Assembly (NCBI GenBank): GCA_029260615.1
Contig: JAJDCX010000053.1
Coordinates: 1 to 64,000, forward strand
Direction of reading: 5' to 3'
Source: Phycisphaeraceae bacterium
GTDB lineage: Bacteria > Planctomycetota > Phycisphaerae > Phycisphaerales > Phycisphaeraceae
DNA length: 64,000 nt
Below, in pieces: positions 1,533 to 7,127 of this stretch; positions within the stretch are counted from its first letter, which is position 1; every line of letters starts with the position of its first letter. Position numbers and translations under genes: made by a program. The notes under the pieces are model-generated. The model did not search any database, was not told where the DNA came from, and was given only the letters and a program-made list of their open reading frames with translations.

Positions 1533-2068
1533 TCTCGCCCTTCGATGCGTTCGATGTCTTTGATGTAGGCTTCGGTGCGGTCGAGTTCGCGTTTGAGGTG
1601 GCGGACTCTTAGCAGAGACTTGACGCGGGTGATGAGTTCGAGCTTGTTGACGGGTTTGGTGACGAAGTCGTCGGTGCCGGACTCGACGCCGCGTTCGATG
1701 TCGCCCAGTTCGTTCAAGGCGGTGACCATCATGATGGGGATGGTGCGGGTCTTGGGGTCGTCTTTGAGTTTTCTGCAGACGTCGAAGCCTGACATCTTGG
1801 GCATCATGACGTCCAGGAGGATCAGGTCGGGTGTGGGTTGGTCGTCGTCTTCGACAATTTCGATGGCTTGGAGGCCATCGAACGCGGTGAGGACTTTGCA
1901 GGGGAGGTCGTCGAGGTAGGCCTGGATGAGTTCGACGTTTTGCTGGTTGTCATCGACGACGAGGATGACGGATTCGCTGAGGTCGAAGTCTTCGCCCTCG
2001 CCGCCGGCAGGCTGGGTTTGGGCGTCGGCGGTGCCGGGGTTGTTGTTGTCTTGATCGGATGGGGTCAT
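1526..2068 (-). CDS. CheY-like response regulator, receiver domain only
   Basis: A 180-residue protein. A variable, Gln/Asp/Gly-rich N-terminus (1-30) precedes one receiver domain (about 33-155) with the full active site: acidic pair Asp39/Asp40, phosphoacceptor Asp86 in LLDVMMPKMSGFD, Thr116 and Lys138 in VTKP. A short charged helical tail with RELDRTEAYIKDIE follows; there is no DNA-binding or enzyme output domain. It should therefore signal through a protein partner of a two-component system whose histidine kinase is not in the window. The start overlaps the stop of the upstream glycosyltransferase-like gene by 4 bases (ATGA), so the two are probably translationally coupled. Confidence 0.9.
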   Translation of the reverse strand: MTPSDQDNNNPGTADAQTQPAGGEGEDFDLSESVILVVDDNQQNVELIQAYLDDLPCKVLTAFDGLQAIEIVEDDDQPTPDLILLDVMMPKMSGFDVCRKLKDDPKTRTIPIMMVTALNELGDIERGVESGTDDFVTKPVNKLELITRVKSLLRVRHLKRELDRTEAYIKDIERIEGREG

Positions 2069-2892
2069 CGTGTCGTGTCCTGGGTGATCCGGTGGAGCCG
2101 TTGGCTTAGCCGGGTCAGCGTGGGTTCGTTGGTATGTTTGAGTCGGTGTTGCAGTTCCAGCAGGTCGGTGGGTGTGTCCACGTCGTGCCAGGGTGTGAGG
2201 TCCAGGAGTTTGAGGCCTGCGTTTTGGGCGGCGTTGTGGGTCTGATGGTACACCGCCTCGGTGCCCCAGTCGATGCCTGAGAGCAGCTGTGGGGCGGGGC
2301 GGTTAGTGGCGAGGCAGTAGTATCCGCCATCGCTGACGGGGCCTATGGTGGCGTCGGCGTGGTCGAGTGTGGGGAAGATGTTTTTGAGGGTTTGTGGGGG
2401 GATATCGGGGCTGTCGGTGCCGAAAAACACGGTTCTCCCGCCCCCGCCCCCGGGGTTCCCAACTCCCCGGGAGCCGTTGGATTCACTGGAGACCTGGGTT
2501 CGCTCGCCCGCTGCGGGTTCAGGGGTATTTTCTGTGTTGATTGTGTGCCAGACGTGATTCAGGCGGTCGCCGAGGTCGCCTTGACCCTGGTCGATGACCT
2601 GGAATTCGTGGGGGATTTGGAAGGCGAGTTCGGGGTCGGGTTGCTCTGGGGGTGTGTTTTGGGGGTTAGTTGGGTGGTCCAGAGCGAGGATGTGTCGGCC
2701 GGGGAGGTGGGTGAGCAGGCGGGTGAGGACGCAATCGAGCATGGCGGCGTGGATGCAGGCGGCTTGATGGGGGGAGTAATCGGGGGTTAAGCGGGTCTTG
2801 ACGCGGCCTGGGGCCGGGTGCTTGGCCATGACCACGACACAGGGGGTTGCGTGGGTTTGGACTGGGGGGGTGGTTTGGTTAATCGTTGTCAT
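2065..2892 (-). CDS. TIGR04282/DUF2064 family GT-A-fold glycosyltransferase-like protein
   Basis: A 275-residue protein that starts its domain with VVMAKHPAPGRVKTRLTP, the nucleotide-binding opening of the DUF2064 (TIGR04282) family, which has the GT-A glycosyltransferase fold. Later landmarks are a GDLGDRL segment, FFGTDSPDIP (the usual GTD-P-D strand and metal site) and GPVSDGGYY, then WGTEAVY. The family has been linked to arsenosugar synthesis in some organisms, but no such partners are seen here, so the substrate is unknown. Between the GDL helix and the FGTDSPD strand there is an extra stretch of about 35 residues rich in Gly, Ser, Pro and Asn that the family normally lacks. The gene is coupled to the downstream response regulator by an ATGA overlap. 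Confidence 0.85.
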   Translation of the reverse strand: MTTINQTTPPVQTHATPCVVVMAKHPAPGRVKTRLTPDYSPHQAACIHAAMLDCVLTRLLTHLPGRHILALDHPTNPQNTPPEQPDPELAFQIPHEFQVIDQGQGDLGDRLNHVWHTINTENTPEPAAGERTQVSSESNGSRGVGNPGGGGGRTVFFGTDSPDIPPQTLKNIFPTLDHADATIGPVSDGGYYCLATNRPAPQLLSGIDWGTEAVYHQTHNAAQNAGLKLLDLTPWHDVDTPTDLLELQHRLKHTNEPTLTRLSQRLHRITQDTTR

Positions 2893-3277
2893 GACAGGGT
2901 GTTAAGGTTATTTGATGGGGCGTGTTATTTGCTATTGTCGTGGAGAATGCTAAGATGCGATGCTCGATGCGTGGGCTGTGCTGCTGTGGGGGGGCAGGCT
3001 TAAGCATAGCGGGGGCAGGGTATCGGGGGTTGTGTGTTTTCGGGGATCTTTGGGGACTGGAAAGTATTGCGGGGTTTGAAAAGGCCTGTTGAAGCCGCGA
3101 TGAGTCGTTGGAGTAGGCTAGTTTAGGCCGTTTTAACGGGAGCGTGGCCGATCGGGGTTTGTCGGGGATTCATGACCTGATCGTGAGTAGGCCGAAGATT
3201 TATCGGAATCAGACTTGGGTCGGCACGGGACGTTGCTGGCTTGTGACATTTAGAGGAGCTCGCCGAGATTGACTGCC
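2893..3277. other. gene-free divergent intergenic region
   Basis: 385 bases between two divergent genes. G-rich on the plus strand in its first half. I see no clear promoter pair, terminator or repeat; AGAGGAG at 3252-3258 is the ribosome binding site for the next gene. Confidence 0.5.
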
Positions 3278-3763
3278 ATGACAACACCTGTTTACGACGT
3301 GAATAGTCCGTGGGAAGACCGTTGGGCGAAGCCGGAGGTCGAGCAATTGCTTGGCCCGATCGAGGAGCAGCGCCGAAAGGTTGTTGATATTTTGATTAAG
3401 CAGATCATGGCGTACCCCGGCGTGCATCAGACGGTGATCTGGCACGGGACGGGTTGGAAGTGGACGCTGCAGTTTTCCTTGTATGCCGAGGACGGTGAGC
3501 TGATTGATACGCTGGCGTACCTGGTGCCAAATCCCGAATCGCCGGTGCTGTGTATCCCGATGAAGCCGAGCACGGTGGAGAAGCTGCCGTTGAAAAGGCT
3601 GAACCGGTATATCCGTGATGCGATCCGTGTGGCGAAGCGGGCGGTGGATATCTATTGGGCGGTGTGGACGCCGACGGCGGTGACGGAGACGGAGCACCTG
3701 ATGGACCTGATTAAGCGTCGGCACAAGATCATGATGGGGCTGGAGGCTGAGAAGGCTAGTTAG
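3278..3763 (+). CDS. hypothetical cytosolic protein, weakly DUF3788-like
   Basis: A 161-residue soluble protein of unknown function. There is no signal peptide or membrane segment. The middle holds a WHGTGWKWTLQFSLY block followed by alternating strands and a basic C-terminal helical part (LKRLNRYIRDAIRVAKRAVDIYW). The GWKWTLQF...LAYLVP layout loosely recalls the DUF3788 fold, but I would not assign it. The ATG at 3278 begins MTTPVYDV. A TTG at 3269 is nearer in spacing to the AGAGGAG site at 3252-3258, so the true start may be three codons earlier. An intrinsic terminator follows 49 bases after the stop, so it is probably a single-gene transcript. Confidence 0.65.
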   Translation: MTTPVYDVNSPWEDRWAKPEVEQLLGPIEEQRRKVVDILIKQIMAYPGVHQTVIWHGTGWKWTLQFSLYAEDGELIDTLAYLVPNPESPVLCIPMKPSTVEKLPLKRLNRYIRDAIRVAKRAVDIYWAVWTPTAVTETEHLMDLIKRRHKIMMGLEAEKAS

Positions 3764-3812
3764 CTGGGCTTGGTAGTGGTTGGGAACGAATGATTCAAAA
3801 GAACCTTGATTG

Positions 3813-3841
3813 CCCACGGCCAAGCGGTCGTGGGTTTTTTA
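3813..3841 (+). terminator. intrinsic terminator after the DUF3788-like gene
   Basis: CCCACGGCC pairs with GGTCGTGGG around an AAGC loop (one G-T pair), followed by six T. It ends transcription from the preceding gene and insulates the non-coding RNA that starts about 190 bases later. Confidence 0.85.
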
Positions 3842-3968
3842 TTACGCGGTGGTAAGGGGTCGGTGGTGGTGTTGTCTGTGGCTGATAAAAACGGTCTGGT
3901 GCGGGCTCTTGGGTTACCGGGGATGTGGCGGGCTGGTGTGTATTCGTTTGGCGTTAGGTGTGGGGGAG

Positions 3969-4026
3969 AATAAAGTTTTGGAATATTTGAAAAAAACATT
4001 GACCTTTGGCGGATCGAACCGATAAT
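3969..4026 (+). promoter_or_regulatory. strong sigma-70-type promoter with UP-like AT tract for the non-coding RNA
   Basis: TTGACC at 3999-4004, a 16-base spacer and GATAAT at 4021-4026 are close to consensus. The 30 bases upstream (3969-3998) are strikingly AT-rich for this GC-rich genome, with A and T runs, as in UP elements of stable-RNA promoters. Transcription should start at about 4033. Confidence 0.8.
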
Positions 4027-4032
4027 TAGAGT

Positions 4033-4394
4033 GTCGGCGTGGCCGATCGGTAGAGGCGTAGGAAAACCCTGCGTGCTTGCCGGGTCGAGTGAAGCCGACC
4101 GAGCATCGGTGTAGAGACCCCTCTTGCCGATGGGCGTGGTGCCCCGCAAGACGTTACGGGGCGGAAAGACTCCGGCGGCCTGGCTGTACGGCGAGGCGTT
4201 GTCAGCAACGGCGCAGTACAGCGGAAGGTGACGGCTGGAACAGTGCTTTTCAGAACGGAGGTGATTCTTGGATAATGACAGTTGTACGAGTGTTCGGGGT
4301 GGGCTGCGTTAGGCAGCTCGACGGAGCTGATAAGCAGCTCCCACGCCCGGACCCACAATCTACGCCCGTCCCGATGCGTCGGGGCGGGTTTTTT
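4033..4394 (+). ncRNA. unidentified structured stable RNA of about 360 nt
   Basis: No protein frame here looks real, yet the stretch has a strong promoter and an intrinsic terminator. It folds readily by eye. A long-range closing helix pairs 4036-4042 (GGCGTGG) with 4341-4347 (CCACGCC) and continues with GTC/GAC. Local hairpins are at about 4057-4074 (AAAA loop), 4102-4132 (CATCGG...CCGATG), 4141-4162 (GCCCCG...CGGGGC), 4183-4223 (GCTGTAC...GTACAGC, enclosing CGTTG TCAG CAACG), and small stems near 4303-4345. The promoter, UP tract and closing helix are the architecture of a housekeeping RNA such as RNase P RNA, tmRNA or SRP RNA. The conserved cores of those three families are not evident, so the family is left open. 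dprA begins 130 bases downstream, behind the terminator. Confidence 0.65.
4365..4394 (+). terminator. intrinsic terminator of the non-coding RNA
   Basis: CCCGTCCCGA and TCGGGGCGGG form a 10-bp stem with one G-T pair around a TGCG loop, followed directly by six T. Confidence 0.9.
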
Positions 4395-4420
4395 AATTGG
4401 GGTCTTGGGCCCAGGGCCTG

Positions 4421-4462
4421 GGGCATAAGCATTAGCAGCTAGCCTTTAGCCGTTCGTTAAGC
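4421..4462. repeat. imperfect TTAGCC-rich low-complexity patch
   Basis: Irregular copies of TTAGC/TTAGCC (CATTAGC, CTAGCC, TTTAGCCG, TTAAGCG) lie between the non-coding RNA and dprA. Very similar patches occur at 26092-26110 and, inverted, at 52852-52875. Confidence 0.45.
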
Positions 4463-4524
4463 GGTGGTTGACTCTGGCCAGCCCCTGGACCCCAGACCCA
4501 ACATCCCTTTGCTACACTCGCTTC

Positions 4525-5682
4525 ATGGAAAATGCTGAACATGATGCGCTGTTGGCGTTGACGCTGGCGGAGGGGTTTGGGCAGACGACGATCCGGCGGT
4601 GCGTCGAGCGTTTTGGTAGTGCGGTTGAGACGCTTGGGGCGACGGTGCAGGGGTTGGGGGAGATCGAGCGGGTGGGTGCGGCGAAGGCCCGGCGGTTGCG
4701 TACGGCTTTGGATCAGACGCTGCATAGCGATGAGTTGGAAGTAGAGCGGGAGTTGATTGAGCGGTTTGGGGTTGAGTTGGTGGGGTTGAATGATGAGGGG
4801 TATCCGAGGTTGCTGAGGCATATCCCTGATCCGCCGACGTTGCTGTGGGTGCGTGGTGAATTAAAAGAATCTGATGCGCTTGGGCTGGGGATTGTTGGGG
4901 CGCGGCGATGTACGCATTACGGGCGTGAGCAGGCGGACCGTTTTGCGAGCTTGTGTGCGCAGAGCGGGTTGTGCATTGTTAGTGGTGGGGCGTATGGGAT
5001 CGATGCGGCGGCGCACCGTGCGGCGTTGCGGGTTGGTGGGCGGACGGTTGCGGTGATCGGCTCGGGGTTGGCGAAGCCTTACCCAAGCGATCATACGGAG
5101 TTGTTTGATTCGATTGCGGAGGAGGGTGCTGATCGGGGGGCGGTGGTCAGTGAGTTCCCGATGAACACGCCGCCGACGGCGCAGAATTTTCCCAGGCGTA
5201 ACCGGATAATCTCGGGGCTGTCGTTGGGTGTGTTGGTAGTGGAGGCGGCGACGCGGAGCGGTGCGTTGATCACGGCGAGGTTGGCGGTGGAGGAGCATCA
5301 CCGTGAGTTGATGGCGGTGCCCGGGCGGGTGGATGCGAAGTCTTCGGCGGGGTGTCATAAGATTATCCGTGAGGGTTGGGCGACGCTGGTGACGAGTCCG
5401 GCGGATGTGTTGGATGCGTTGGGTGAGGCGGGGCAGATGCTGAAGGTCGGGATGACGCAGGAAGATGGGGCGGCAGCGGGCGGAGGTGGTCCTGCTGAGG
5501 ATGTGGGGTTGACTGAGGCGCAGCAGAAGATTGTGGATGTGATGAGTGGGCCGAGCTCATTGGACCAGCTTGTGGCTTGGACGGGGCTGGCGATCCAGAA
5601 CGTGCAGGCGGAGCTGACGATGTTGGAGATCCGCGGGGCGGTGCGTCGGTCGGGGGGGCTGTTCACGCGGCGCGGGTCGTAG
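4525..5682 (+). CDS. dprA: DNA-processing protein DprA
   Basis: A 385-residue protein of the DprA/Smf family, which binds single-stranded DNA and loads RecA during natural transformation. The N-terminus (about 1-70) carries helix-hairpin-helix-like repeats. The Rossmann core starts at LGIVGARRCTHYG, with SGGAYGIDAAAHRAAL, GSGLAKPYPSDH, SEFPMNTPP, NFPRRNRIISGLS and ARSGALITARLA-type blocks, all diagnostic. The C-terminus (about 325-385) is a winged-helix-like domain following a Gly-rich linker. The ATG at 4525 (MENAEHDAL) is chosen because the family alignment begins there; the frame is open to 4468 without similarity. hisD follows 77 bases later in the same direction. Confidence 0.95.
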   Translation: MENAEHDALLALTLAEGFGQTTIRRCVERFGSAVETLGATVQGLGEIERVGAAKARRLRTALDQTLHSDELEVERELIERFGVELVGLNDEGYPRLLRHIPDPPTLLWVRGELKESDALGLGIVGARRCTHYGREQADRFASLCAQSGLCIVSGGAYGIDAAAHRAALRVGGRTVAVIGSGLAKPYPSDHTELFDSIAEEGADRGAVVSEFPMNTPPTAQNFPRRNRIISGLSLGVLVVEAATRSGALITARLAVEEHHRELMAVPGRVDAKSSAGCHKIIREGWATLVTSPADVLDALGEAGQMLKVGMTQEDGAAAGGGGPAEDVGLTEAQQKIVDVMSGPSSLDQLVAWTGLAIQNVQAELTMLEIRGAVRRSGGLFTRRGS

Positions 5683-5759
5683 GCGGCTTTGTCTGGTATA
5701 GTTTCCGGTCCGGTCAAGACGCGGTTTTGGCTGGGTTACACAGACACGGAATACCTACG

Positions 5760-7127
5760 ATGCTCCCGGTTTTTGATCAAAATACGTCCGAAGGTCGGTT
5801 GGGGTTGCAGGCTTGCCTGGATCAACTGCGTGGCACGGCGGGTGCCGACGGCAAGGTGGCGGAGGTTGTCTGCGGCATCCTTGCGGATGTGCGAGAGAAC
5901 GGTGACGCGGCGTTGGCGGGTTATGTAGTCAAGTTCAGCGACCCGTCGTTTACGGCTGACCGTTTGCGTGTCAGCGCGGAAGAATTGGCGGGGGCGTCGA
6001 AGCTTGTTGATGCGGATTTGTTGGATGCGATCAAGACGGCGATTGCTCAGGTGCGTGAGTACCAAGAGCACATTATGCCTAAGCGGGTTGAGCCGGTGAC
6101 GATAGGGGGGGCTGAGCTTGGGCTGCGTTTCACGCCGATGGATAGCGTGGGGCTGTGCGTGCCGGGTGGTACGGCGGTGTTGTTTTCTACGTTGATTATG
6201 CTGGCGGTGCCGGCAATTGTGGCGGGGGTTGATCCTAAGTGTATTAGTGTGGCACACCCGTTGCCGACACGACCCCCCGGAAGTTCCCCCGGTTCTCCTG
6301 GAAGTATCGATGGTGGGTCGCAGGATAAAAACTCCGGGGGTGATATTTCGCCGATCGTGTTGGCTGCTGCGCACCTGTTGGGTATTGATAAGGTTTACCG
6401 TGTGGGTGGTGCGGAGGCGGTGGCGGCGATGGCGTATGGGACGGATACGGTTGAGGCGGTGGACTTCATTGCTGGGCCGGGGAATGTGTATGGGCAGTTG
6501 GCTAAGGCTCAGGTGTCTGGGACGGTGGGGATCGACGGGTTTTATGGGCCTAGCGAGATCGTGACGATCGCGGATGAGACGGCGGACCCGGTTCGTATCG
6601 CGGCGGATCTGATCGCCCAGGCGGAGCACGACCCGGGGAAGTGTTTTCTGGTGGTCTGGTCGCGTGAGGTGTTGGACGGGATCGTTGCGGAGGTGCAGAG
6701 CCAGTTGGGTGATCGCCGACGGCGTGACGCGATTGTGCGCGCGTTAGAGGATGAATCGTGTGCGGTGCTGGTGAAAGATATTGATGAAGCGGCGGCGGTG
6801 GCGAACCGTTTTGCGGCGGAGCATGTGAATCTGGCGGTCGCTGACCCCGATGCGTTGTTGGAGAAGGTCCGGCACGCTGGGGAGGTGTTTATAGGTGACA
6901 CGACCCCGGTCGCTGCGGGTGATTACTACGCGGGGCCGAGCCACTGCTTGCCGACCGCGACGACGGCGCGTTTTACCAGCGGGGTGAGTGTTTACACCTT
7001 TTTGAAGCGCACGGGGACGGTTGCTTACCGCGAGGGTATGCCGGCGTTGGCGATCGATCACGTCGCGAAGATGGCGGAGGCGGAGGGGCTGGACGGCCAC
7101 GCGCATTCGGCACGGGTGCGGGGTTGA
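5760..7127 (+). CDS. hisD: histidinol dehydrogenase
   Basis: Catalyses the last two oxidations of histidine synthesis, L-histidinol to L-histidine with NAD, as a cytosolic zinc enzyme. The 455-residue length is slightly above the usual 430. Diagnostic blocks are YRVGGAEAVAAMAYGT, FIAGPGNVYG, GPSEIVTIADETADP with AEHDP (zinc and base residues), FAAEHVNLAV and SGVSVYTFLKR near the end. Between about residues 171 and 195 there is a Pro/Gly/Ser-rich insertion (PPGSSPGSPGS...), just before GDISPIVLAAA, where other HisD proteins have a short loop. At the DNA level the insert is bounded by a near-perfect inverted repeat. No other his genes are nearby. The ATG at 5760 gives MLPVFDQN; the frame is open further upstream inside dprA, which is a shadow. 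Confidence 0.96.
   Translation: MLPVFDQNTSEGRLGLQACLDQLRGTAGADGKVAEVVCGILADVRENGDAALAGYVVKFSDPSFTADRLRVSAEELAGASKLVDADLLDAIKTAIAQVREYQEHIMPKRVEPVTIGGAELGLRFTPMDSVGLCVPGGTAVLFSTLIMLAVPAIVAGVDPKCISVAHPLPTRPPGSSPGSPGSIDGGSQDKNSGGDISPIVLAAAHLLGIDKVYRVGGAEAVAAMAYGTDTVEAVDFIAGPGNVYGQLAKAQVSGTVGIDGFYGPSEIVTIADETADPVRIAADLIAQAEHDPGKCFLVVWSREVLDGIVAEVQSQLGDRRRRDAIVRALEDESCAVLVKDIDEAAAVANRFAAEHVNLAVADPDALLEKVRHAGEVFIGDTTPVAAGDYYAGPSHCLPTATTARFTSGVSVYTFLKRTGTVAYREGMPALAIDHVAKMAEAEGLDGHAHSARVRG
6274..6340 (+). repeat. inverted-repeat-bounded in-frame insertion within hisD
   Basis: CCCCCGGAAGTT at 6274-6285 and AACTCCGGGGG at 6330-6340 are inverted copies differing by one base deletion. The segment between them encodes the extra Pro/Gly/Ser-rich loop of HisD. 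This looks like a small palindromic element inserted in frame. Confidence 0.45.

Follow-up and report, generated by a model that had tools for sequence, protein, structure and literature searches.

A single-copy structured RNA shared by many Planctomycetota, with an extended Shine-Dalgarno sequence and an in-frame mini-ORF

The window, a 64,000-nucleotide stretch from the genome of a Phycisphaeraceae bacterium, contains at 3969-4394 an RNA gene some 360 bases long, which has a promoter and a terminator of its own and on sequence comparison is a single-copy gene shared by many Planctomycetota. The RNA carries an extended Shine-Dalgarno (SD) sequence and an in-frame mini-ORF, both missed in the preliminary description, and together these change the kind of RNA that it is; judged by its relatives, the family is also more widespread and more unusual than that description had supposed. 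Comparison across genomes shows a transcription unit independent of its neighboring genes, with a conserved fold, an exceptional SD and selection for translation; gating by ribosomes, action in trans and the output of the RNA are what we infer. Ribosomes very probably read the RNA and alter its shape. The reading that we prefer, with somewhat under an even chance of being right, is of a free-standing RNA whose fold would be switched by ribosome binding and translation of the mini-ORF and which would act in trans on a partner. The coordinates of the features are collected in Table 1.

Table 1. Features of the RNA gene and its surroundings, in window coordinates
Feature	Position	Strand	Description
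Terminator of upstream gene	3812-3840	+	separates the upstream gene from the RNA
Promoter	3999-4026	+	-35 TTGACC (3999-4004), 16-base spacer, -10 GATAAT (4021-4026)
5' domain	4033-4099	+	GTCGGC/GCCGAC helix enclosing a hairpin with conserved A-rich loop GGAAAACC; MFE
Conserved CGAGC and helix P3	4100-4132	+	P3 pairs 4104-4109 with 4127-4132; from alignment
Helix P4	4141-4162	+	GCCCCG/CGGGGC; conserved GACG in loop (4150-4153)
Basal extension of P5	4164-4250	+	GAAAG (4164-4168) with CTTTT (about 4246-4250); ends just before the SD
Helix P5	4171-4239	+	TCCGGC (4171-4176) with GCTGGA (4234-4239); variable apical hairpin
Extended SD	4257-4267	+	GGAGGTGATTC; run of 9 bases exactly complementary to the 16S 3' end
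Mini-ORF	4268-4312	+	MDNDSCTSVRGGLR; TTG start, 14 codons, TAG stop; in frame in relatives
Helix P6	4300-4343	+	4300-4307 (last sense codons) with 4334-4343, stop codon inside
Intrinsic terminator	4364-4394	+	GCCCGTCCCGATGCGTCGGGGCGGGTTTTTT; 11-bp stem, loop of 4, T-run

The strong promoter and the textbook terminator proposed in the preliminary description were both borne out. The promoter is a good one of sigma-70-like type that agrees with the consensus at 10 of 12 positions, and the same element stands at the same place in congeners and in other members of the family, with a similar AT-rich stretch upstream of it kept in the congeners; transcription probably starts at about 4032-4035. A terminator is likewise conserved in relatives at the position equivalent to that in the window. 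As the upstream gene ends in a terminator of its own, the RNA is a separate unit.

With this housekeeping-like layout, two identities had been considered at the outset, a highly divergent housekeeping RNA or a new lineage-specific RNA. An Rfam 15 scan of 3969-4394 gave no match at the gathering threshold and no plausible match when relaxed to E <= 1, and no tRNA-like domain or element was found in this interval. Covariance models for RNase P RNA (RF00010, class A), tmRNA (RF00023), SRP RNA (RF00169) and 6S RNA (RF00013), as well as those for OLE RNA and other large structured RNAs of Rfam 15, had no match there either. Searching the rest of the same genome located rnpB on contig C72 (260.7 bits with the class A model), tmRNA (ssrA) at G000:C38:3625-3979 (L021, 121 bits), SRP RNA (ffs) on C89 (49.5 bits, above the cut-off) and a 6S-like RNA at G000:C39:14830-14988, which at 37.8 bits lies below the Rfam cut-off of 46.4 and is possibly a divergent planctomycete 6S RNA. 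With each of the four placed elsewhere, 6S RNA as a sub-cut-off match, the first of the two identities fails despite the gene layout, and the probability that the locus is a divergent RNase P RNA, tmRNA, SRP RNA or 6S RNA is close to nil. The second is supported, with the qualification that the lineage concerned is no narrower than an order and extends into further classes of the phylum. The tmRNA on C38 was recognized by the Rfam model and missed by ARAGORN, so planctomycete tmRNA is divergent. A literature search found no paper describing the RNA of 3969-4394. As set apart by Rfam 15 and the literature searched, it is a genuine new family; the planctomycete RNA candidate "Rhodopirellula-1", listed without an Rfam number (PMC2864571), stands outside this comparison.

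The first nucleotide search recovered close copies from the same genus and, from further genera, short matches to the core, and alignment of these relatives gave two conserved blocks, GTGCCCCG...GACGT...CGGGGC...TCCGGCGGCC and GGYGACGGCTGGAAC, the latter followed by GGAGGTGATCC. A covariance model built from this alignment and restricted to the core (R1) matched 32 of 51 genomes of the family and 97 of 301 genomes of the order, always as a single copy except in the window's own assembly. The retrained model (R2) also matched, more weakly than in the order, in further families of the class and, beyond it, in additional classes of the phylum Planctomycetota, with E-values for far matches of 1.4e-14 (G651), 5.9e-14 (G664) and 4.6e-12 (G415). 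Because R2 ends at the SD and the mini-ORF lies outside it, the mini-ORF found behind most of these far matches and the subsequent hairpin found behind many of them constitute independent support. Decoy loci of GC-rich genomes reached at most 19.5 bits, as against at least 64 bits for true members in the same search.

About a third of the family genomes gave no R1 match, and some members of the family may really be without the RNA. A relaxed rescan of 35 negative genomes yielded four weak matches, of which one was a true copy (G037) and three were false: one was the reverse complement of the 16S 3' end (G012), and two were without SD and ORF (G015 and G016). A further weak match, G579, was likewise false. 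As model matches with E > 1e-4 are partly false, the per-genome frequency of the RNA is uncertain. A degenerate DNA pattern applied to 84,980 genomes returned 118 matching stretches, only two of them true by context, and a covariance rescan of 73 of the 118 loci gave high scores to the same two alone. Seven pattern matches fell in viral contigs, where the model gave weak scores that never exceeded 18.2 bits, and carriage by phages was rejected. The window's assembly holds a second copy of the RNA on contig C85 (L010, G000:C85:1-12000), which is syntenic with window positions 1533-6584 at 78-92% identity; given this synteny gene duplication was set aside, and C85 is probably a contig of a sister species within the assembly.

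The strong internal structure noted in the preliminary description is confirmed by a folding energy of -172.2 kcal/mol, compared with -149.3 +/- 6.0 in dinucleotide shuffles (z = -3.8, 0/100), and by helices that covary in subfamilies f2 and f3. Its closing helix between the ends stands in part: 9 of 11 pairs form in the window (4027-4037 with about 4352-4362) and 11 of 11 in the congener G003, but the helix can be traced within the genus only. What other families share is the helix of GTCGGC (4033-4038) with GCCGAC (4094-4099), the partners of which, by inspection, change together in relatives (for example GUUGCAG/CUGCGAC in G036).

Covariation was tested on seven helices in the 18 sequences of f2, where 93.6% of cells are paired, compared with 84.6% in shuffles. 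Double changes occur at 21 pairs and in 65 cells, compared with 19.1 +/- 3.8 cells in shuffles (0/500 as high), and sliding the helices lowers the paired cells to 32-46%. Within f2, P4 is paired in 97.2% of cells with double changes at 5 of 8 pairs, P5 in 95.6-98.1% with double changes, and P6 in 92.3% and 88.9%, again with double changes; P6 is seen in f3 too, and the equivalent of P3 covaries in both subfamilies. Subfamily f3 independently shows the same architecture, with double changes at 21 of 50 pairs. The preliminary description had proposed a search for homologs with covariation; such homologs exist, and covariation makes this a well-supported fold. Support is weaker for the basal extension of P5, whose own strands pair better than swapped ones with 47 of 5000 shuffles as good. 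The outer strand of P6 consists of the last codons of the mini-ORF, covarying with sequence past the stop codon, and encloses a nested hairpin, CAGCTC(GACG)GAGCTG, at 4314-4329. A conserved GACG also lies in the internal loop of P5 (4230-4233), so that the motif recurs in P4, in P5 and in the P6 loop (4320-4323), and it is found further within an upstream CGACGA of relatives; this recurrence suggests repeated contact with one partner, for which GACG would be a candidate binding site.

Just past the P5 extension lies the extended SD. In relatives it usually reads GGAGGUGAUCC, with the consensus GGAGGTGATCC, and the 16S 3' end GGCTGGATCACCTCCT is present in the window's genome. Exact runs of at least 9 and up to 14 bases were found in 61 of 70 complete relatives, while a 9-base match occurs in none of 343 ordinary ORFs of at least 150 aa (window and 60 neighborhoods). 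The predicted pairing energy of the SD has a median of about -23 kcal/mol and is -19.0 in the window, far above the strength of ordinary genes (window ORF median -7.3). Pairing of this order could also belong to a ribosome sponge, in which an abundant RNA would tie up 30S subunits by titrating or parking them on its SD and translation of the mini-ORF would be a release step only. Since SD genes are reported to be few in Planctomycetes (PMC5397173), the extended SD would then be selective; the elaborate conserved 5' domain and the GACG motifs would be superfluous to such a sponge, which we regard as decidedly unlikely.

The rpsU (bS21) mRNA of Bacteroidota is a parallel case of an exceptionally strong SD in a lineage where SDs are rarely used; it carries an extended SD and is preferentially translated by ribosomes that lack bS21 and have an accessible anti-SD (PMC9976891). 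In Phycisphaerales, by contrast, the extended SD sits in the RNA and the product is a mini-peptide; rpsU there has no extended SD, with at most 7 matching bases, and bS21 autoregulation as in Bacteroidota was rejected for this reason. OLE RNA, also large, conserved and structured, with a proposed SD/anti-SD link, binds bS21 through a mimic of that pairing (PMC12054373); the planctomycete RNA differs in having no Rfam match and in an SD that leads into an ORF, and it is not known to bind bS21.

The preliminary description saw no credible protein in this gene, and here it was wrong, since the 14-codon ORF and its extended SD (4257-4312) are conserved in frame in relatives. In nearly every complete copy of the order an SD-like sequence is followed by a start codon 0-3 bases downstream. 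The mini-ORF usually has 9-14 codons, and across 70 complete copies the peptides are mostly of 10-14 residues, with the consensus M-x(2-4)-D-C-x-x-G-L-[R/H]-x before the stop. The UGU codon for Cys shares the frame of the start codon in 64 of 65 cases, though its place varies among codons 4, 5, 6 and 7, so that insertions and deletions come in threes, and differences at codon positions 1, 2 and 3 number 19, 33 and 43 in 17 independent close pairs. By the measure applied to dual-function RNAs, frame, SD strength and codon-position bias point through comparison to a translated short ORF, and selection for its translation is well supported. A regulatory small RNA in which the mini-ORF is incidental or a mere stability device would agree with a free-standing unit that ends in a terminator and has no conserved neighbor; frame, start, stop and SD are conserved beyond expectation for an incidental ORF, and this explanation appears very unlikely.

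In f2, f3 and the outgroup classes a pseudoknot forms between the short apical loop of P5 and the first part of the mini-ORF. In 40 short-loop sequences the score was 14.0 for each sequence's own partners and 12.27 +/- 0.33 for swapped loops and ORFs (0/5000), in a swap test that ignores the relatedness of the sequences; inside f2 alone the result was 76/2000, and in the window's own subfamily, with its longer P5, the test gave no signal. A pseudoknot adjoining the SD is typical of translational control, and together with the in-frame ORF and its conserved Cys codon in the order it leads to another explanation, that the RNA is a tiny mRNA whose micropeptide (DCxxGL[RH]) is the product and whose 230-base structured 5' part provides riboswitch-like control of translation. 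Longer Cys-rich versions of 26-33 aa occur in L017, L229, L239 and L240 (for example MSDCTCCPGNCCEKPTSCCGHRSGLH), the first three of which count in its favor. Yet the core of the RNA is better conserved than the peptide, which diverges strongly beyond the order and in other classes has lost the Cys and much of its sequence, and because of this divergence the peptide product may be of no importance. The pseudoknot and P6 pairing account for part of the ORF conservation, with helix overlap alone a possible cause of part of that in the last codons, and 9-14 residues is very short. The tiny mRNA is in our judgment the strongest of the alternatives, though still rather improbable.

In the window's family the RNA is flanked by the gene of a conserved protein of about 160 aa on one side and by dprA/hisD on the other. 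The protein, which is upstream (window 3281-3763), had no Pfam match and keeps its synteny with the RNA at 17 loci of the family. In other families the neighbors include EF-G and PAP2, FtsK and a carboxyltransferase, semialdehyde dehydrogenase, LpxD, an epimerase, valS and nth, on either strand, and no conserved co-oriented downstream gene was found across the families compared. The mini-ORF, followed by alternative hairpins in which its last codons pair and by a terminator, resembles a leader-peptide attenuator, and the synteny in the window's family would fit a cis-acting leader of dprA. Because neighbors and their orientation change between families, however, the RNA is not the leader of one conserved gene; the dprA attenuator was rejected, and a cis-acting leader in general, largely refuted by downstream genes that are unrelated and may lie on the opposite strand, has only a minute probability.

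RNAIII of Staphylococcus and SgrS are dual-function RNAs, both coding and regulatory, and the RNA described here is like them a structured, free-standing RNA with a short translated ORF, translation in this case being indicated by comparison. It differs in an ORF of only 9-14 codons in most members with codons built into conserved helices, in an SD complementary to nearly all of the 16S 3' end and in a family that spans several classes, and has no sequence or Rfam relation to either. Its structure is conserved outside the ORF as well. With tmRNA it shares a free-standing, housekeeping-like character, one or more pseudoknots and a mini-ORF of about 10 codons. However, its ORF has a start codon and an SD where tmRNA has a resume codon, no tRNA-like domain was found in it, and the genome has its own tmRNA.

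Under the preferred reading, that of a ribosome-gated RNA, free 30S subunits with an accessible anti-SD would bind the 9-14-base SD and translate the mini-ORF, and the initiating, travelling or terminating ribosome would have to disrupt both the pseudoknot where the ORF begins and the P6 helix of the last codons. The RNA would thus alternate between a ribosome-free and a ribosome-bound fold, and once switched would act in trans on a putative partner. Counting against this reading are the absent pseudoknot signal in the window's own subfamily, the divergence of the peptide beyond the order, the third of family genomes with no match, and the helix overlap as a sufficient cause for some of the last-codon conservation.

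Single-copy structured RNAs that are kept in several classes of one phylum are rare, and such conservation points to a basic role in the cell. Taken together, an extended SD, a mini-ORF built into conserved helices and the lack of an attached target gene suggest that this RNA is under the control of ribosomes themselves. Through it one can ask directly what planctomycetes, in which SD pairing is seldom used, do with the anti-SD that they have retained. More speculatively, and on balance unlikely, the RNA may sense the state of the ribosome pool throughout the phylum, reporting on or titrating 30S subunits with a free anti-SD, with its fold and its action in trans switched by translation. If this is true, such a sensor would be the ribosome counterpart of 6S RNA.
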